Below, piece after piece: positions 7,293-27,014 of a DNA stretch of 59,504 nucleotides. The notes beneath the pieces are model-generated. The model was not told where the DNA came from and made no database searches. It saw nothing but the letters and a program-made list of their open reading frames with translations. Location: positions 1-59,504 of the IMG/VR virus record IMGVR_UViG_3300047157_000188. One strand, given 5' to 3'. Source of the stretch: a virus. The stretch's first letter is position 1. Each line of letters opens with the position of its first letter. Position numbers and translations under genes: made by a program.

Positions 7293-9774
7293 TTCTAAAT
7301 TCTCCTGTGCATATTAGTATTTGGATTAGGTTTGCGAGATTCTTTTCCATAATCTCATTCTTCTTTTTAATATCTACTTTACTTGTGTAGTCAACAAACT
7401 CTTCGCCTTCTGGAGTCTTGCCAACTCCTAAACCAATCTGCTCTGCTTGCTCTGTATCCTTCAGATAAAAAGTCATTGCTTTTTCAAATCTCTTCTTTAG
7501 ATGGTGGTCTCCCAAGAATCTTTTGCCATATACTATGAAGATTATTATGGTGCAATAACCTTGGCATAGTTCTACCCATCCTCATATTATTTTGCCACAT
7601 TTCTCTTGCCATTTCTTTTGCCAGAGCAATAATCTTTGGATTGTTCATTAGGAATAGTGCTTGTGTACTCACGGTAGTCACGTTCCTTTCTGCTGCCATA
7701 AGGCTGTTGTCTGGTCTGTCAAATGTATCCAAGACTTCTATTTTGTTGTCCCTCAAAGAAGGAATATAAATAGACCTAGACTTGGTTTCTCCAATATACT
7801 TTCTTAATTCTTTTCCCGGTGCTTTAATTCCTGTTTGGAAATCGCTTATGTTCTTATGCGACTCGTCTAGTTTGCCTGAGACAAACAACAGACTGTCCCT
7901 AATCTGTTCAGCCTCTAATCTTTTCTCATTCATTCGCCAAACATATACATTGTCTGGGTCAATCTCAAAATTTTCTTTATTAAAGTTACTGCTACGTCTG
8001 TAAGCATTACTCATAACAATAGTTTTAATTAATCTTTTGTTTGACAACTTGCCAGTAGTAAACTTACTGGAAAGATAGTTCATAAGTTTAAGATTAGTTG
8101 GCTCACCACCTAGTATACCAAAGTTATCGAAACTGTCAAGTATACCTTTGCCGAATAAATGTCGCCACACTCTATTTACATGAACCCTGTATGTCAAAGG
8201 ATTAGTTTTGTGTGCAATCCATTCTGCCAGTTGATAACGTCCACTGGTATTATCAAAGTTGAGATTAGGTCTGTCACTAAATATTTCTGGTAATCTTCTT
8301 GGTACTTCATCACCCAGATTATTTACTTCGCCTCTGATTGCTAATTTAATCTCAGACATTTTATCTTTATCTTTTACAGTCATTACAGGCTCAAGATATT
8401 CCAGAGTATTTTAAACTCTTCTTTCCTGTAATCTTTTTAAGTTCTGCCATCTTGTATCCAGAGTCTTTTGTCTCTTACCAAGTTCTCTGTTTAGTTGTTC
8501 TTCTGTCGCTCTTTTGTTCCATGTCTTAATGGATTCTATTTGAGTTTGCAAATTCTTTATATCACAAAGAAGGAACCATTCTTTTATTCTTTTTTGTTTG
8601 TATAAATCTTCTGTTTCTTTAGTGACTAAATAGCCATACTCACCAAGATAACCAGTGTTATTGTTTCCTCTATACAAACCATCAAGGTTCTTTGTATTGT
8701 TAAATAAACCAGCAACACCGTAGTAATCCTCTTGACTAAAAGGATCAAACTTATGATCATGACACCTTGCACAACTCAAAGTCATACCAAGAAAACCTCT
8801 GGTGATAGCATCTATCTGGTCATCATTGCGGTCTGCTTCAAACTGTCTAGTCTGTGCCTGTATATTTTTTGTGCCTATTGTCAGATAGCCTGTAGCAATT
8901 CTGTTCGTATTGTATTGCTCAAAAGTTTTATGTGGCAATAGATCACCAGCAATTTGTTCTTTTATAAATTCATCGAATGGTTTATCTTCATTAAAACTAT
9001 CTATAACATAATCACGGTATCTCCAAGCATAAGGACTAACTAAATTTCTGTCTTGTCCACTGCTCTCGCCATACCTTGCTACATCCAGCCAATGCCTTCC
9101 CCATTTCTCGCCAAATCCTTCATCATCAAGTAAAGTATCGACTAAATTTTCATAACGATTTTCACTCTTGTCCTGCATAAACTGTCTTATCTGTATCTCA
9201 CTTGGAGGCAATCCAATAAGATCAAAATATAATCTACGCATTATTGTATAGTCATCTGCTGGTTCCACAGGTTTGAGACCCTGCTTCGCCATCTCACGAT
9301 CAAGAAGACTATCTATTTCTGTACCATCTTCGTAACTAGCAACAGCAGGACGTTTAACCTGCTTGAATGACCAGAACTGTCTAGCCTGTCTAAGTTCTAT
9401 TGCTCTGTTCTCATGCTTGTAACGTGGATCAGGTAATCCCATTTTAATCCATTGTCGAAATAAGTCAACAGTCTTTTTATCTAATGGGTTATCTGGCGGC
9501 ATATCACCAGACTCTACATAATCAAACAGAGGGCTTTCTTCTGGCTTACCGGGAACCACACTTGGGCCAGAATCGCCACCCTGTAATACTCCCAGCCTAG
9601 TATCTATTGCAAATCCACCTTTAGTTTTTTCTGAGGCAGAAGAATGACACGAATAACACTGCGTCTGCAAAACTGGTAAGATATTATCATTAAAAAATTT
9701 AACACCACTTTTATCTTGAACTCACTTAACTCAACAGCAAAACTAGCCATATCATTAGTTACCACAATATACAA
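7282..9774 (-). CDS. PSD1-type planctomycete cytochrome protein (cytochrome C / DUF1549 / DUF1553; broken)
   Basis: Joined frames give about 820 residues in the usual order. First comes a planctomycete cytochrome C domain with heme motif CYSCH (preceded by ILPVLQTQ) and a GDMPPDNPLDKKTV segment. Then DUF1549 (MRRLYFDLIGLPPSE, WGRHWLDVARYGESSGQDR, SCARCHDHKFDPFSQEDYYG). Then DUF1553 (WIAHKTNPLTYRVHVNRVW, FDNFGILGGEPTN) and the closing [20 protein letters not shown]1 genes occur in many copies in planctomycetes beside DUF1501, exactly as here, and have been linked to use of complex sulfated glycans; the reaction is unknown. An in-frame TAA at 8411-8413, a shift near 7510 and one near 9715 interrupt it. 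The start near 9774 (TTG after AGGAG) and a short signal-like N-terminus are uncertain. Confidence 0.8.
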
Positions 9775-9776
9775 TG

Positions 9777-10172
9777 TTATACTCCTGTAGGTATTACAGT
9801 ATCGCAATTATTTGTAAAAACTATCCCTTTGTTTTCTGGTGCTGGAAATGGCTTATCAAATTTATATATTTGAGAAACTACCCAACCATATTTATCCTTA
9901 TTATCTTTCCAACCAAACCCACTATCTTTATCTACCTTATGTCTATTATAGTCAGATTCCCATTCTTGTATATTATTATATTTAAAACTATGACTGAATG
10001 TTATTGTTCCAATAATTCTAGCTTTAAACTTGCCAAATTTACCGGGAGTCTCAATTAATGCTAACTCTTCACCTTCGTATTTTTGTGGTAAGGGATACGA
10101 CCTCGTTTCAACACACTTATCTAAATTAATAAGTAATTCAGACCAAGGGTATTGAATATTAATTCCAATCAT
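9777..10172 (-). CDS. ASCH-domain-like protein, 131 aa
   Basis: The N-terminus (NIQYPWSELLINLDKCVETR followed by SYPLPQKYEGEELALIETPG) fits the ASCH/PUA-like pattern of PW-LL-xGxKxxE-R and a beta-strand with GKFKARIIGTI. ASCH domains bind RNA or modified nucleotides and are common in phages. The frame is intact. It overlaps the gene upstream by 14 bases and ends three bases before the proposed PSD1 start, with AGGAG inside its last codons serving PSD1. The family call is from motif memory. Confidence 0.5.
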   Translation of the reverse strand: MIGINIQYPWSELLINLDKCVETRSYPLPQKYEGEELALIETPGKFGKFKARIIGTITFSHSFKYNNIQEWESDYNRHKVDKDSGFGWKDNKDKYGWVVSQIYKFDKPFPAPENKGIVFTNNCDTVIPTGV

Positions 10173-15224: not shown

Positions 15225-15226
15225 AA

Positions 15227-15298
15227 TAGCTCCGGCGAGAATCGAACTCACATTTGAGGTTTAGAAGACCACTGTTCTATCCGTTGAACTACGGAGCC
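15227..15298 (-). tRNA. tRNA-Arg (anticodon TCT)
   Basis: The 72-base cloverleaf on the minus strand has acceptor GGCTCCG/CGGAGCT with a G-U first pair, D arm GTTC/GAAC, anticodon loop CTTCTAA, variable loop of four, T arm GTGAG-TTCGATT-CTCGC and discriminator A. The anticodon stem has one mismatch (T-T). CCA is not encoded. It reads AGA, a codon that is very frequent in the AT-rich phage genes here, so it probably helps translation of phage mRNA. Confidence 0.9.
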
Positions 15299-15305
15299 AA
15301 AGGCC

Positions 15306-16639: not shown

Positions 16640-16668
16640 AGTATATCATATCGACATTATGATGTCAA
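16640..16668 (-). promoter_or_regulatory. CGATA-class promoter of the 16.2-16.6 kb pair
   Basis: Minus strand: TTGACA, 17-base spacer with GTCGATA, TATACT, about 20 bases before the start codon. It overlaps the last codons of the upstream gene. Confidence 0.8.
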
Positions 16669-16974
16669 TACCTTTAGCCAATCTTTCCATATTTGGACAT
16701 TCCAAGTAGATGGAAACGGAGCACCACGACTAGTATAAGCATTGTCAGGATATAGTTTATTCCTATCTTTATCTTCAAACCACCTAGCCTGCCTAATGGT
16801 AGTACCCATAAATTTAGACATATCTGACAACGTAATTTCTTCCACACCCATACTAGAAAAATGATCTAGCATCTCTATAATTTTTTGCTTCTTGTTGGGA
16901 CTGTTCACTCTCGTTTCTATAGTTTTGTAGGGTATTGGCATTACAGAACTATTGGTGTCATACTGAAAATACAT
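16657..16974 (-). CDS. Hypothetical protein with winged-helix-like C-terminus, 105 aa
   Basis: GGAAAGGAGACAATT precedes ATG 16974 (MYFQYDTNSSVMPIPYKTIE). Residues 35-75 (KQKIIEMLDHFSSMGVEEIT, LSDMSKFMGTTIRQARWFED) look like a helix-turn-helix or winged helix, so DNA binding is possible. Strong promoter directly upstream. The assignment is from pattern only. Confidence 0.55.
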   Translation of the reverse strand: MYFQYDTNSSVMPIPYKTIETRVNSPNKKQKIIEMLDHFSSMGVEEITLSDMSKFMGTTIRQARWFEDKDRNKLYPDNAYTSRGAPFPSTWNVQIWKDWLKVLTS

Positions 16975-16992
16975 AATTGTCTCCTTTCCCCT

Positions 16993-17021
16993 AGTATACA
17001 TTATCGGCATACTATTGTCAA
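16993..17021 (-). promoter_or_regulatory. CGATA-class promoter of the 105-aa gene
   Basis: Minus strand: TTGACA, 17-base spacer with GCCGATA, TATACT, about 20 bases before the start codon. It directly follows the repeat element that ends the candidate RNA. Confidence 0.8.
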
Positions 17022-17035
17022 TACTTTAATATTTT

Positions 17036-17413
17036 GGCTGACTGTAACCATCCTAAACTAATCTTACTAGATTAGGTAGAACAAACTGGCGTCTATACGA
17101 TGTTGGTCCAATCTTCCCCGGCCTAGCCGGAAGGTATAGAATCCTGCGTTGTTGGTCAATGCCTTCTCAGCGGATACTCTCCTCAGAGGTCACCAGTTGT
17201 TTGTATTGTAGGACTTAGGCGAAACCCGTTCTAGGGTAACACTTTCCCGTATAGCTATCAGGCTGCCTATGTGCTATACGCCTTATCCATCTTAATGTGC
17301 GGTCATGGACACTAGGGGTTCGCACCCTACAGACATTTCCGATTGCTATCGCCAGTACCTTGTCGAATCACAATCTCAGGTACGAATGTCTGGGTAACTA
17401 TTCCGTGCCATGT
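17036..17413 (-). ncRNA. Candidate structured non-coding RNA, about 375 nt
   Basis: No coding frame fits this stretch, and it looks visibly richer in G+C than the genes around it. A CGATA promoter (17420-17447) points into it. Pairings found by eye, plus-strand positions: 17330-17337 with 17385-17392 (8 bp), closing a junction that holds 17355-17360 with 17378-17383 and 17340-17343 with 17348-17351; 17313-17317 with 17325-17329 (7-base loop like a tRNA T-arm); 17248-17255 with 17273-17280 (8 bp); 17113-17133 (hairpin with bulge); 17085-17090 with 17193-17198 (closing a 100-base domain); 17059-17076 (7-bp hairpin at the 3' end). It does not match tmRNA, RNase P, SRP or group I intron cores that I can recall. 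The 3' end is uncertain. Confidence 0.55.
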
Positions 17414-17419
17414 ATCCTA

Positions 17420-17447
17420 AGTATATCATTATTATCGTCGTTGTCAA
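17420..17447 (-). promoter_or_regulatory. CGATA-class promoter of the candidate RNA
   Basis: Minus strand: TTGACA, 16-base spacer with GACGATA, TATACT. No start codon with a ribosome binding site follows for about 450 bases, which is the main reason to propose a non-coding product. Confidence 0.75.
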
Positions 17448-17458
17448 CACTATTCTTT

Positions 17459-17505
17459 AAAAAATATAAAAAAAAACGTAAGTCGTTACCAGTAAACAAC
17501 TTACG
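17459..17505 (-). terminator. Strong terminator after the 85-aa gene
   Basis: Minus strand: CGTAAGTTGTT, 7-base loop, AACGACTTACG (11-bp stem, one G-T pair), then nine T and more T-rich sequence. It lies directly upstream of the RNA promoter. GCCCGC lies just before it. Confidence 0.75.
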
Positions 17506-17530
17506 CCATACATGCGGGCCCGGTTTCCTT

Positions 17531-17788
17531 TCATTCCTCAAAATCTTTATCACGAGATTCGTCCAGGATGTGATAGCATTCTTCTAGTATATCCTCCGTC
17601 TCCCACACGGTTGTCTTCTTATCTGCACTAATATAGTCCTTACAACCACGTTCGTCTACATATACATATTCGTCTATCAATTCGCTCCCTGTCATATAAT
17701 CTAAAAACATTTTTATAACTATTTCTTTTTTGTTTAGATCCGTATTAAATACTTTCCTAAAATTTCCTGATGCTATGTATACCTTCAT
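17531..17788 (-). CDS. Hypothetical protein, 85 aa
   Basis: AAGGAGG lies 6 bases before ATG 17788 (MKVYIASGNFRKVFNTDLNK). It is acidic with a helical C-terminus (TEDILEECYHILDESRDKDF). In the raw sequence the frame of the GP88-like gene runs into this start without a stop; the ribosome binding site argues for a separate gene and for a lost stop upstream. A terminator follows. Function unknown. Confidence 0.55.
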   Translation of the reverse strand: MKVYIASGNFRKVFNTDLNKKEIVIKMFLDYMTGSELIDEYVYVDERGCKDYISADKKTTVWETEDILEECYHILDESRDKDFEE

Positions 17789-18556
17789 GCTGTCTGCCTC
17801 CTTCTTGAGAATCTTTAGTGCTTCCGCTGCTTTGCTACCCTTTGGCTGTACTCCGTGAATCAGTAGAGCAAAATCCTGATTTGCTTTGGTTGGATCGCAG
17901 GCATGACTATCATCGTTGATCGACTTCCAGACCTAGATCGTCTGCTTCTTGTTGGCTGAAAACTACTTTAGCAGATCGTAGACCATGCTCTGCAATCAGA
18001 TGATCGTCACGACCACCGTATGATGCAGTCAAACAAGATTGGCAGGCACAAGGTCACGACTACGAACCCAATACGTCAGAGACTTAGTGTAAGCATAGAA
18101 TAAAACATCAGGGTTACGCTCTGCGACTTTGATCCATGCCATGAAATACTTGTGACTGAACATATCACCAGACACATGAATACGAATAATTCTGGCGTCC
18201 TTGGGTAATGCTGCACACAATCCGTCTGCCATAGCGTCACTTGTTTCCAGACTATGTATAGCGTCGTGATTACGCTTGCGACTTTTGTATGTATTGGTGA
18301 ACAATACTTCTTGACTAGCAGAGAAGCAACGGAATTTGGTATGAGGACCGTCCTTAATTCTGCGACTACCGTCTGCCTGCTCTTCGGCTTGAGACTTGCA
18401 GTTATGGGCGAAAGGACAGTCTACTCCCGATAACAGATCGAAAGAATAAACTTTGGCAGTAGACCGTCCTATCTTCTGACCCAACCACCGCTTGAGTACA
18501 GTTGTTGCGAGCTTGTAGAGTTTTTTGAGTTTGGTGTTTGCTGCTGAAAATTTCAT
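17789..18556 (-). CDS. GP88-family phage protein, about 250 aa (frameshifts in the C-terminal third)
   Basis: GGAGACAACCACA precedes ATG 18556 (MKFSAANTKLKKL). Family-like landmarks are YSFDLLSGVDCPFAHNCKSQ near residue 37, GPHTKFRCFSASQEVLFTN, YKSRKRNHDAI and RIIRIHVSGDMFSHKYFMAW. After a shift near 18030 the chain continues TASYGGRDDHLIAEHGLRSA and, after another near 17910, DDSHACDPTKANQDFALLIH, GVQPKGSKAAEALK. The cysteine pair CPxxxNC and the HVSGDMFS stretch are typical of the mycobacteriophage gp88-like group. Role unknown. It is transcribed from its own CGATA promoter. Confidence 0.65.
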
Positions 18557-18592
18557 TGTGGTTGTCTCCGGTGTGATGTTGCTTGTCCCCTC

Positions 18593-18620
18593 AGTATACA
18601 ATATTATCGTCCTTTGTCAA
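18593..18620 (-). promoter_or_regulatory. CGATA-class promoter of the GP88-like gene
   Basis: Minus strand: TTGACA, 16-base spacer with GACGATA, TATACT, about 40 bases before the start codon. Confidence 0.8.
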
Positions 18621-18636
18621 CTATATTCTTGAGTTT

Positions 18637-18795
18637 TTTTGCTGACTGTTTTACATAAATTTAACCGAGTGGATAGGGTGAGACAAATAGCTGTAACTCT
18701 ATAGCTGACAACAACTTACAGCTACTGTGCGGGCACGACCGAACCTAAGTCATTGCTAGGCAACAACTTAGGCCGGTTCACACACACCACGGAAG
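18637..18795 (-). repeat. Intergenic hairpin pair plus GCTGACTGT element
   Basis: Plus strand: GCTGACTGT near 18642 and GGTGAGACAAA near 18680 form the repeated element. Then AGCTGTAA...TTACAGCT (8-bp stem) near 18690-18718, GCGGGC, and CCTAAGT...ACTTAGG with an inner TTGC/GCAA pair at about 18744-18772. No coding frame. The second hairpin follows the stop of the 18802 gene on the minus strand and may end its transcript. Confidence 0.5.
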
Positions 18796-21278: not shown

Positions 21279-21306
21279 AGTATACAGTCATTATCGGCAT
21301 TGTCAA
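21279..21306 (-). promoter_or_regulatory. CGATA-class promoter of the acidic-protein row
   Basis: Minus strand: TTGACA, 16-base spacer with GCCGATA, TATACT, about 25 bases before ATG 21250. Confidence 0.8.
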
Positions 21307-23838: not shown

Positions 23839-24264
23839 TTAGAGATACATATGAGCCCCTTGGTGCTTAAATCCTAATGAATCGTAAAATGGAATCACCG
23901 ATTCTTCGCAATTAAGCTTTACCTTATAGCAATCATTGTCTTTTGCTGCTTTGATACAATGTGCCACTATCATCTTTCCGTAACCTTTACCTCTATCCTC
24001 CACTTTTGTTGCCACATCTTCTATATGACAACACATCTTACTGTATCTTAATTTAATTTCTAATAATATTGTAGACGTCGCCACCACATTATCTTCTGCT
24101 ATTCCTAAGAACGTTATGATATTTTCTTTCCTGTATCTTAATCTTTCCCTTACATCCTCAACATTCTGCACCACACAGTCTGATTTATTTAAAACACTGA
24201 TACATTCCATATACTGTTTTATATATTTTTCGTCTGTATCTTTATTTAATATAATTATATTCAT
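23839..24264 (-). CDS. GNA1-type glucosamine-6-phosphate N-acetyltransferase (GNAT), 141 aa
   Basis: A GNAT fold with HIEDVATKVEDRGKGYGKMI (acetyl-CoA loop RGKGYGK) followed by DCYKVKLNCEESVIPFYDSL and GFKHQGAHMYL. The pairing HIEDV...RGKGxGK and CYKVxLxCxE..FY..xGF is that of the eukaryote-type GNA1, not of bacterial GlmU. It would turn glucosamine-6-phosphate into GlcNAc-6-phosphate. It overlaps the GlmS stop by four bases and so shares translation with the enzyme making its substrate, which strengthens the assignment. Intact frame. Confidence 0.75.
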   Translation of the reverse strand: MNIIILNKDTDEKYIKQYMECISVLNKSDCVVQNVEDVRERLRYRKENIITFLGIAEDNVVATSTILLEIKLRYSKMCCHIEDVATKVEDRGKGYGKMIVAHCIKAAKDNDCYKVKLNCEESVIPFYDSLGFKHQGAHMYL

Positions 24265-26078
24265 TCTACCGTAACACTTTTTGCTAAATTTCTAGGTTTA
24301 TCAACATTACATCCCCTACCTTCTGCACAATGTAAAGAAAACAACTGCAATGGTATTACTGACATAAATGGAGTAATTAATTCTTCGCAGTCAGGAACCT
24401 TAATATTATACTTTCCTATATTATCTTCATTACTGTGCTTTAGTATAGCTATTACCTGACCTCCTCTAGACTCTATTTCTATCTTATTATTTAAAATCTT
24501 ATTATATTCTTTATTATTGTTCGCTATAACTACCACAGGCATTTTATTATCTATTAAAGCTATAGGACCGTGTTTCATTTCTGCTGCCGGATATCCTTCT
24601 GCGTGTATATAAGAAATCTCTTTTAACTTTAATGCACCTTCTAAAGCTATTGGAAAATTATATCCTCTACCTAAAAATAAACAATTCTTTTTATGATAGA
24701 ATCTTTCCGCTAAATCCCTTAACTCTGCACAATCTTTAATAGCTTGAGATATTAGTATAGGTAAATCTTTAATACCACTAATAATTTTCTTTCTTTTATT
24801 TAAATCTGTATGATTCGTAGTCTGATCTATAAATAATGCCAGTAGTAACATACTTAAACATTGATTAGTAAAAGCTTTAGTACTAGCCACACCAACCTCT
24901 ATACCACATCTCGTATAAATCCCACATTCTGTCATTCTACTTATTTCAGAATTAACAGTATTACACACACCTATAGTAATTGCACCTTTCTCTTTCGCTA
25001 ATCTTAATGCTGCAATAGTGTCTGCTGTTTCTCCTGATTGAGATACTCCTATAACAATATCTCCATTTTCTATAACAGGATCCCTATATCTAAACTCACT
25101 AGCATATTCTACATTGACACCTACACCTGCTAGCTCTTCTATATAATATTTAGCTAACAATCCAGCATGCCAACTAGATCCACATCCTAATATAGTAATC
25201 CTTCTAGCTCTTATAAACATCTGCTTATTATCAAATCCACCCAACTTAACCTTATACCCATTTATTCTGCCCAACAAACATTCGCTAACAGCATTCGGTT
25301 GTTCATATATCTCTTTCAACATAAAGCTAGAGTAATTTTCTTTAGTAATTTCATATGCATTGTTATATATTTTTTCTATATTGCATTGTGTTACATTCTT
25401 TACATTGCTGTCATAATGTTCTACTTTATCTTTTGTAATTTTACTGATATATCCATCTTCTAACGTTATGACATGATTAGTATCTTTATTGAAAGCACTT
25501 ATATCACTAGCTACATAATAATTTCCATCATTTATTCCCACACATAAACTACTACCTTTTTTACCACATATCAAAGTATCTGGATTTTGCTGATCTAACA
25601 ATATAAAAGCATACGCACCTATAATCTTTTCTGTAGCCACTTTAACAGCACTATATAAATCCCCAACTTCTTGCAACACATCATATATTAGATATAGCAA
25701 TACTTCAGAGTCTGTATCTGAATTGATTGTATATTTATCCCTAAAACTATTCTTGATCTCTTTATAATTCTCTATGATTCCATTATGAACCAAGGCTAAA
25801 GAGTTATTATATGTAACATGAGGATGGGCATTTCTTTTACAAGCCTTACCGTGCGTAGCCCACCTAGTATGACCTATACCTATATTTCCATAAAGCTTTT
25901 TATTAACTTTCAGATCTTCTATGCTACCACTTTGCTTAATAGTCTTAATTTGACCAGTATCTTTCTCTATAAAGGATATTCCCACACTATCATATCCCCT
26001 ATACTCTAATCTCTTTAAGCCACCTATTAAAAAAGGTACAGCATTATTCTTACCTATATAAGCTACTATTCCGCACAT
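24261..26078 (-). CDS. glmS: Glutamine-fructose-6-phosphate aminotransferase, 605 aa
   Basis: Full length and intact. The start MCGIVAYIGKNNAV places the catalytic cysteine after Met1. LEYRGYDSVGIS and HTRWATHGKACKRNAHPH mark the glutaminase domain (1-220). Two SIS sugar-isomerase domains follow, with TILGCGSSWHAG near 300, VSQSGETADTIAAL near 350 and GRGYNFPIALEGALKLKEIS near 470. The ending KPRNLAKSVTVE is the canonical C-terminus. It makes glucosamine-6-phosphate from fructose-6-phosphate and glutamine, the entry step to UDP-GlcNAc. It is AT-rich like its phage neighbours. It lies four bases after the GDP-fucose synthase stop and overlaps the acetyltransferase, forming one sugar operon. 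Confidence 0.95.
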   Translation of the reverse strand: MCGIVAYIGKNNAVPFLIGGLKRLEYRGYDSVGISFIEKDTGQIKTIKQSGSIEDLKVNKKLYGNIGIGHTRWATHGKACKRNAHPHVTYNNSLALVHNGIIENYKEIKNSFRDKYTINSDTDSEVLLYLIYDVLQEVGDLYSAVKVATEKIIGAYAFILLDQQNPDTLICGKKGSSLCVGINDGNYYVASDISAFNKDTNHVITLEDGYISKITKDKVEHYDSNVKNVTQCNIEKIYNNAYEITKENYSSFMLKEIYEQPNAVSECLLGRINGYKVKLGGFDNKQMFIRARRITILGCGSSWHAGLLAKYYIEELAGVGVNVEYASEFRYRDPVIENGDIVIGVSQSGETADTIAALRLAKEKGAITIGVCNTVNSEISRMTECGIYTRCGIEVGVASTKAFTNQCLSMLLLALFIDQTTNHTDLNKRKKIISGIKDLPILISQAIKDCAELRDLAERFYHKKNCLFLGRGYNFPIALEGALKLKEISYIHAEGYPAAEMKHGPIALIDNKMPVVVIANNNKEYNKILNNKIEIESRGGQVIAILKHSNEDNIGKYNIKVPDCEELITPFMSVIPLQLFSLHCAEGRGCNVDKPRNLAKSVTVE

Positions 26079-26081
26079 ATA

Positions 26082-27014
26082 TTATTGAGAAACATACCAA
26101 TCGATAGTTTCTTTTAATCCTTGTTCTAATGGTGTGAACTCTTGATAGTCTATAAAACCATTCAACTGACTAGAGTCTACCAAACGTCTAGGTTGTCCAT
26201 TTGGCTTATCCGTTTGCCAATTAATATTCCCTTTATATCCTACAACCTTACATATATTATATACTAGATCCTTTATGCTCGTCTCTTTTTCAAAACCAGA
26301 ACCGATATTGCATATTCTATATTGACCTATTTCCCCCAAAGACTTTACTATTATTTCTGCACAATCCTTAACATACAAAAATTCTCTAGTAGCACTTCCA
26401 TCTCCCCAACAATCTACGCTATCGATATCATTATTTTTAGCATAAACTATTTTTTTAATAAGAGCAGGAATCACATGGCTACTTTTAGGATCAAAGTTAT
26501 CACCAGGTCCATATAAGTTACAAGGAACAAAGACCATACTATTAAAATTATATTGTTTACAATATCCTTCTAACATTGTATATAGCGCTTTTTTAGCTAT
26601 TCCATATGGGGCATTTGTTTCCTCTGGATATCCGTTCCACAAATCTGTTTCTTTGAAAGGTATGGGGCAAAATTTGGGATAGGAACAAACAGTTCCAACT
26701 TGGATAAATTCTTGAACATTATGAGTTCTAGAAGCTTCTATAATATTAACTCCCATAGCCATATTATCGTAAAAGAACTTTCCGGGGTTTTCCTTGTTTG
26801 CCCCTATACCTCCTACCCTAGCAGCTAAATGGATTACAGTATTAGGTTTATACTTATTTAAAAGTTTGCGGGTTTCATTTTGTTCTGTTAGATCAAAGTC
26901 CTTAGACCGAAATCTTATAATTTCATTTTCCTTATATCCATGATCTATCAGTTTTTTAAAAACCCACTGACCTAAAAATCCGTAGCCACCGGTAATTAAA
27001 ATAGTATTACTCAT
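26082..27014 (-). CDS. fcl: GDP-L-fucose synthase, 310 aa
   Basis: A short-chain dehydrogenase fold with NADP loop ITGGYGFLG (residues 7-15), HLAARVGGIGANKENPGKFF (the fucose synthase signature), Ser111 in GTVCSYP, and Tyr137/Lys141 in NAPYGIAKK. The length matches Fcl/WcaG. It converts GDP-4-keto-6-deoxymannose to GDP-L-fucose, the step after the Gmd gene at 28.9 kb, which lies on the other strand across the divergent promoter. It overlaps the small DNA-binding gene upstream by four bases. Intact. Confidence 0.9.
   Translation of the reverse strand: MSNTILITGGYGFLGQWVFKKLIDHGYKENEIIRFRSKDFDLTEQNETRKLLNKYKPNTVIHLAARVGGIGANKENPGKFFYDNMAMGVNIIEASRTHNVQEFIQVGTVCSYPKFCPIPFKETDLWNGYPEETNAPYGIAKKALYTMLEGYCKQYNFNSMVFVPCNLYGPGDNFDPKSSHVIPALIKKIVYAKNNDIDSVDCWGDGSATREFLYVKDCAEIIVKSLGEIGQYRICNIGSGFEKETSIKDLVYNICKVVGYKGNINWQTDKPNGQPRRLVDSSQLNGFIDYQEFTPLEQGLKETIDWYVSQ

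Follow-up and report, generated by a model that had tools for sequence, protein, structure and literature searches.

A previously uncatalogued RNA family of about 375 bases, absent from Rfam 15, was found in uncultivated phages. The window, i.e. the whole 59,504-nucleotide stretch analysed here (IMG/VR virus record IMGVR_UViG_3300047157_000188), carries one member, and seven further non-identical IMG/VR phage loci hold homologues. Judging from their comparison, this is almost certainly a real, conserved structured RNA. The initial annotation had proposed a structured, promoter-driven non-coding RNA at this place; the promoter and the structure were upheld and the helices proved to covary, while the strand had to be corrected to minus.

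Location and boundaries of the RNA gene

The following features were recognized at the locus:

17044–17413, minus strand: non-coding RNA gene; 5' end placed from promoter spacing, 3' end uncertain (17058–17044)
17420–17447, minus strand: promoter TTGACA-16-TATACT with CGATA box, sigma70-type, near-consensus
17475–17507, minus strand: intrinsic terminator of the upstream gene, separating that gene from the RNA
17531–17788, minus strand: upstream gene
16657–17010, minus strand: downstream gene with its own promoter (17021–16993)
17058–17075, minus strand: terminal hairpin CUAAUC-UAGUAA-GAUUAG; no U-run behind the hairpin
15226–15299, minus strand: tRNA-Arg(UCU) gene, a neighbour outside the RNA

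Because the upstream gene ends in a terminator and both the RNA and the next gene have promoters of their own, the RNA forms a separate minus-strand unit, with approximately 370 nt from its promoter to the next gene. The CGATA promoter, already noticed in the initial annotation, was located at 17447–17420 and is one of ten such promoters in the window, ten on the minus strand and none on the plus strand (positions 21306, 18620, 17447, 17021, 16668, 15701, 14336, 8139, 5055 and 4177). In these promoters the -35 and -10 boxes flank a spacer that contains the CGATA box, which is possibly a common operator or an extended promoter of the ten genes. Nearest in sequence to the RNA promoter is the one preceding the DUF932 gene (14336).

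The absence of a coding frame was confirmed: the RNA strand has no ORF of at least 60 aa, and the longest ORF lying wholly within the RNA has 36 aa. Of the extent originally given (17036–17413), the 5' side at 17413 was retained, while the last bases, AGTCAGC (17043–17037), belong to a repeated intergenic motif, so that the 3' end of the RNA is probably near 17058–17044. This motif, followed by an A-rich stretch, occurs between genes on the minus strand at 18647, 17043 and 13058, is present also in related phages, and twice stands immediately upstream of a CGATA promoter.

Homologous loci and database searches

The homologous loci were reached through two neighbour proteins and DNA patterns in IMG/VR and comprised L002 (= L003; compared through L030, the same contig), L004 (= L011, L032), L006, L010, L013, L028 (= L014, L017, L027) and L033; the sample thus consisted of eight distinct sequences, some of them close kin. 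The DNA identity of the homologues was 78–80%, and in each homologue read the RNA lay between genes. A comparison of the window with L002 gave 78% identity for the RNA and 97% DNA identity for the next gene, which indicates a fast turnover of the primary sequence of the RNA; nearly all of its helices are kept via compensatory changes, and the gap lengths of 1, 1, 1, 1, 14 and 1 bases exclude protein coding.

The tRNA gene pointed out near the RNA was identified as tRNA-Arg(UCU), and a tRNA gene is likewise present downstream of the RNA in L010, L030 and L032. The downstream neighbours differ, being a gene for 117 aa in the window and L002, a gene for 132 aa in L010 and a GP88 gene in L028, and in all four phages this gene is served by a promoter of its own. 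It is therefore improbable that the RNA is a leader or 3' UTR element acting in cis on a neighbour gene, even though the RNA lies directly behind a DUF7249 gene in L013 and L028 and the window has no U-run terminator between the RNA and the next gene; the RNA very probably acts alone and in trans. A GP88-family gene (Pfam PF17338) is also present in the window (17800–18601, minus strand), where its frame stops early, at 18029, and looks broken; its counterpart in L014 has an intact frame of 256 aa. At 24261–27014 of the window, a 605-aa glutamine amidotransferase/aminotransferase-like protein adjoins a nucleotide-sugar epimerase (PHROGs). The terminase relatives among cultured phages have 25% identity.

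Covariance searches of Rfam with the RNAs of the window, L033 and L028, both at the gathering threshold and at E = 10, gave nothing meaningful, in agreement with the initial annotation, which had named no matching family. The best tRNA-like match was Tymo_tRNA-like (RF00233) in L028, with an E value of 1.1, below significance. The RNA was not found by BLASTN among cultured phages and plasmids. Of two exact-pattern scans of 84,980 prokaryote genomes, the first gave zero matches, while the second gave group II introns and chance matches and zero true members. The matches of the last viral pattern scan were mostly chance or coding, the real ones being the known loci and L033 only. Searching the whole records of other GP88-bearing phages (L031, L034–L038) with model R1 produced zero matches, so the RNA is not universal among them, though these records may be fragments. 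The pattern GGGTGCAAGTCCC followed by GGAYAWGG also selects bacterial group II introns (L075–L087, recognized by eye), which looks like a convergence on the T-arm described below.

The folding energy of the single sequence was unremarkable against shuffles (the RNA strand had a z of -0.98, its complement one of -0.82), and helices picked by eye are thus by themselves no evidence. The alignment of related phages, a check already suggested in the initial annotation, did reveal compensatory changes in the helices, with covariation above shuffles.

The tRNA-like module

The first 110 bases of the RNA fold into a four-way junction, linker-free in the window, with the following parts:

17304–17412, minus strand: tRNA-like four-way-junction module, compared in seven homologues; P1 is 17412–17405 with 17312–17304
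17393–17404, minus strand: P2, a short arm placed like a D-arm; L033 lacks it, and it is weak in L002 and the window
17330–17392, minus strand: P3, 17392–17385 with 17337–17330, enclosing a nested double pseudoknot
17383–17379/17359–17355 and 17375–17371/17345–17341, minus strand: pseudoknot strands a and b; c has only 3 bp in the window
17313–17329, minus strand: P4, T-arm of 5 bp that joins P3 and P1 directly; loop of 7 bases, UGCGAAC
17300–17303, minus strand: ACCG right behind the acceptor-like stem; R-C-C-R in 6/7 homologues, not in L033

The 8-bp junction helix (P3) and the tRNA-type T-arm (TAGGG-TGCGAAC-CCCTA, 17329–17313) had both been noticed from the sequence alone, while the larger tRNA-like module to which the arm belongs had gone unseen. 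In the window P1, an acceptor-like stem of 7–8 bp, is CAUGGCAC/GUG(U)CCAUG, P3 is CAGACAUU/AAUGUCUG and the T-arm is UAGGG-UGCGAAC-CCCUA. Across seven homologues standard pairs were found in 50/51 cases in P1, whose sequences differ at most positions (AGUGGCG, UGUGGCG, CAUAGAG and GUAGCAG, each with a matching partner), in 49/49 in P3 (UAGGCGU, UAGACGU and CAAGUAU, again with matching partners) and in 35/35 in the T-stem. In all seven the acceptor-like stem is stacked on the 5-bp T-arm with a 7-base T-loop, with a 3-nt linker in L033. P1 begins 5–7 nt past the -10 box in each of the six genomes where the RNA has its own promoter, i.e. where the start of transcription is predicted.

The position of the anticodon arm is taken by the double pseudoknot, and a 7-base anticodon loop is absent. 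Inside P3 the strands are arranged as a b c a' c' b' in six homologues; an automatic search for this order gave a summed score of 214 for the six sequences, whereas 200 shuffles averaged 154.5 and peaked at 179.5, and each homologue tested scored above its shuffles, with strand b being weak in L002. The module resembles tRNA and tmRNA in that an acceptor-like stem of 7–8 bp, behind which R-C-C-R usually stands, is stacked on a T-arm of 5 bp with a loop of 7 bases, and differs from them in the short or absent D-arm and in the double pseudoknot replacing the anticodon loop; tRNA models and ARAGORN did not match the module and reported true tRNA genes only. With the tRNA-like structures of plant viruses (Tymo_tRNA-like) it shares a viral origin and a T-arm of the type GGGUGCAA-UCCC, but theirs is 3'-terminal, while here it is 5' or internal, and the model match is not significant. 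An identity as tmRNA was rejected, since there is no tag reading frame together with a tRNA-like domain closed by both ends, and the model did not match. A true tmRNA is encoded elsewhere in the 159,659-base record of L028 (20320–20661; Rfam RF00023, 109 bits), with the tag ADTSVLALAA according to ARAGORN.

In a tRNA, the acceptor/T stack with its T-loop is what RNase P measures and RNase Z clamps. A decoy in anti-defence or regulation, whose tRNA mimicry would soak up a host tRNA-targeting nuclease, a toxin or a regulatory RNA-binding protein, would fit this stack and the site among small promoter-driven phage genes; it is nevertheless unlikely, as the module has a double pseudoknot instead of an anticodon-like loop and zero defence genes were linked to the RNA.

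The conserved core

Behind the module in the window follows a core of two parts:

17207–17298, minus strand: core part I, with a tetraloop-receptor-like loop at its base, GGA-UAA-GG (17288–17281) with CC-UAAG-UCC (17219–17211)
17280–17248 and 17236–17225, minus strand: hairpins of core part I, the first of 8 bp
17080–17201, minus strand: core part II, a four-way junction with AACAACUGGUG/CGCCAGUUUGUU as its closing helix
near 17174–17142 and 17140–17092, minus strand: arms of core part II, including UUGGACCAA (17111–17103)

In the alignment of core part I (A3, eight members) 92.9% of the cells of the named pairs were paired, against 87.4% in shuffles, and sliding the partners by one column lowered the pairing to 33–49% (at most 48.6%). 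Eight pairs were altered on both sides versus 2.4 with shuffled partners, and the covariation score was 0.253 versus 0.142 in shuffles, 0/500 of which reached the observed score. The 8-bp hairpin at 17280–17248, present as previously annotated, is CGUAUAGC/GCUAUACG in most members, CGUAUACC/GGUAUACG in L002 and UGUGAGAC/GUCUCACA in L033. A covariance model (R2) built from seven core sequences with L033 left out was run over 165 kb of sequence, made up of L033 and eleven other loci, and its sole match was L033 8933–9028 (40.2 bits, E 1.6e-9 for 165 kb). L033 is the most diverged homologue, and the match sits immediately behind its tRNA-like module, which had been found independently by BLAST.

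The pair UAUGG/CCUAAG in core part I, which we take to be the 11-nt GNRA tetraloop receptor motif, is exact in L006 and L028, while the window and others have UAAGG, one base off. GGGAAAG and CCTAAGTCC had hinted at the core of a group I intron, an idea that was dropped, as the likeness is due to this motif. Receptors of this kind are common in introns, the T-arm hairpin GGGTGCAAGTCCC is found in group II introns too, and the strands of the pseudoknot follow one another (a b c a' c' b') much as in the HDV topology; all this would suit a degenerate intron or ribozyme, whether group I, group II domain I or HDV-like. Such an origin is very improbable, as the Rfam models of group I, group II and HDV were unmatched even at E = 10, an interrupted gene is absent and domain V was not seen. 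An HDV-like ribozyme in particular was rejected because its strand order is the same but the arms here are too short.

Core part II was compared without L033, for which a confident alignment was lacking. Its closing helix, the long-range helix of the initial annotation, lies at about 17196–17191/17091–17086 and varies as CUGGUG/CGCCAG, CUGGUG/CACCAG and CCAGUG/CGCUGG; the long arm is either UCUAUAC/GUAUAGA or UCCAUAC/GUAUGGA, and CCGGC/GCCGG is replaced by CCAGC/GCUGG in L013. The self-complementary UUGGACCAA becomes UCGGGCCGA in L013 and UUGGGCCAA in L028 with its self-complementarity kept, which is suggestive of the main alternative, a self-assembling ornate RNA forming a homo-oligomeric scaffold by kissing through this loop, with the tRNA-like shape as a building block only. 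GOLLD and ROOL, both phage RNAs whose function is not known, build nanocages made of RNA only with kissing loops, and GOLLD is an ornate RNA often near tRNA genes that varies in its 5' part and is conserved in another (PMC12286853). The RNA described here shares with GOLLD the phage origin, the ornate fold, a nearby tRNA gene and the combination of one conserved and one variable part, and with ROOL the phage origin, the multiple helices with pseudoknots, the vicinity of tRNA genes and the lack of a known function; in GOLLD, however, the variable part is 5', while here it is the tRNA-like module, which can also lie on the 3' side. A relationship with these RNAs, to which the initial annotation had likened the RNA in style, was not supported: neither was matched by sequence or by its Rfam covariance model even at E = 10, and at about 370 nt the RNA is roughly half their size (many GOLLD exceed 800 nt; ROOL, whose nanocage is octameric, has about 659 nt), so membership in either family was rejected. 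A simple 3-bp hairpin also explains the covariation of the loop equally well, and the scaffold reading is on the whole rather doubtful.

Modular organization

The cores of the window and L010 are 97.7% identical, while their first 100 bases cannot be aligned by BLAST and yet have the same fold. In L028 the order is the core, then the tRNA-like module, then an extra hairpin domain, all right behind the DUF7249 gene; the core is likewise behind the DUF7249 gene in L013, where the contig stops. Taken together, the module swap between the window and L010 and the permutation in L028 mean that the two modules are exchangeable and permutable, suggesting that the ends of the fold are close together and that each module acts alone. 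The extra domain of L028 (9740–9860) is a long hairpin (ACGGTAAAGGGGC ... CCCCTTTGCCGT) not seen in the window. L028 also has a duplicated 70-base element (7559–7628 and about 9844–9913, 98.6% identical), one copy of which lies behind the RNA.

Possible function

The explanation tentatively preferred, at somewhat less than an even chance, is a stand-alone, trans-acting phage RNA of two modules, in which the tRNA-like module engages the host tRNA machinery and the core is the effector. The RNA and the small phage genes around it would share one class of promoter. Its acceptor/T stack might then be recognized by host proteins that bind the end or the elbow of tRNA, such as RNase P, RNase Z, the CCA enzyme and EF-Tu, and the module could either signal processing and end protection of the core or act as a decoy, with the core presumably being the effector part. 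The contact with the tRNA machinery, taken by itself, is conceivable but questionable. Several observations weigh against this two-module explanation: tRNA models and ARAGORN leave the module unmatched, some members have a weak P2 or none, L033 has a 3-nt linker and is without R-C-C-R, a start at the RNA's own promoter leaves RNase P hardly any 5' leader to cut off, and visual judgement played a part in choosing the pseudoknot strands and the helices of core II. Of the features of an RNase P substrate, the RNA shows no more than the acceptor/T stack and R-C-C.

Among abundant phage non-coding RNAs are lnc001 and lnc002 of phage K, transcribed from their own promoter, and an RNA of approximately 800 nt in ICP1 (PMC9241854, PMC7567579). 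As a predicted phage non-coding transcript, the RNA described here is similar to these in kind.

In its most specific form, which is on balance unlikely, the proposal is that an exchangeable, permutable and pseudoknotted tRNA-like cassette recruits the host machinery of tRNA maturation or delivery, by which the effector core would be matured, protected or delivered. To our knowledge, a tRNA mimic of such a cassette kind has not been described in DNA phages.

The large phage RNAs GOLLD and ROOL have been known for years and still lack a function. The present family adds a new structured RNA beyond Rfam 15 that is compact and modular, with natural module swaps and a permuted form, and its tRNA-like element points to host partners that can be tested.
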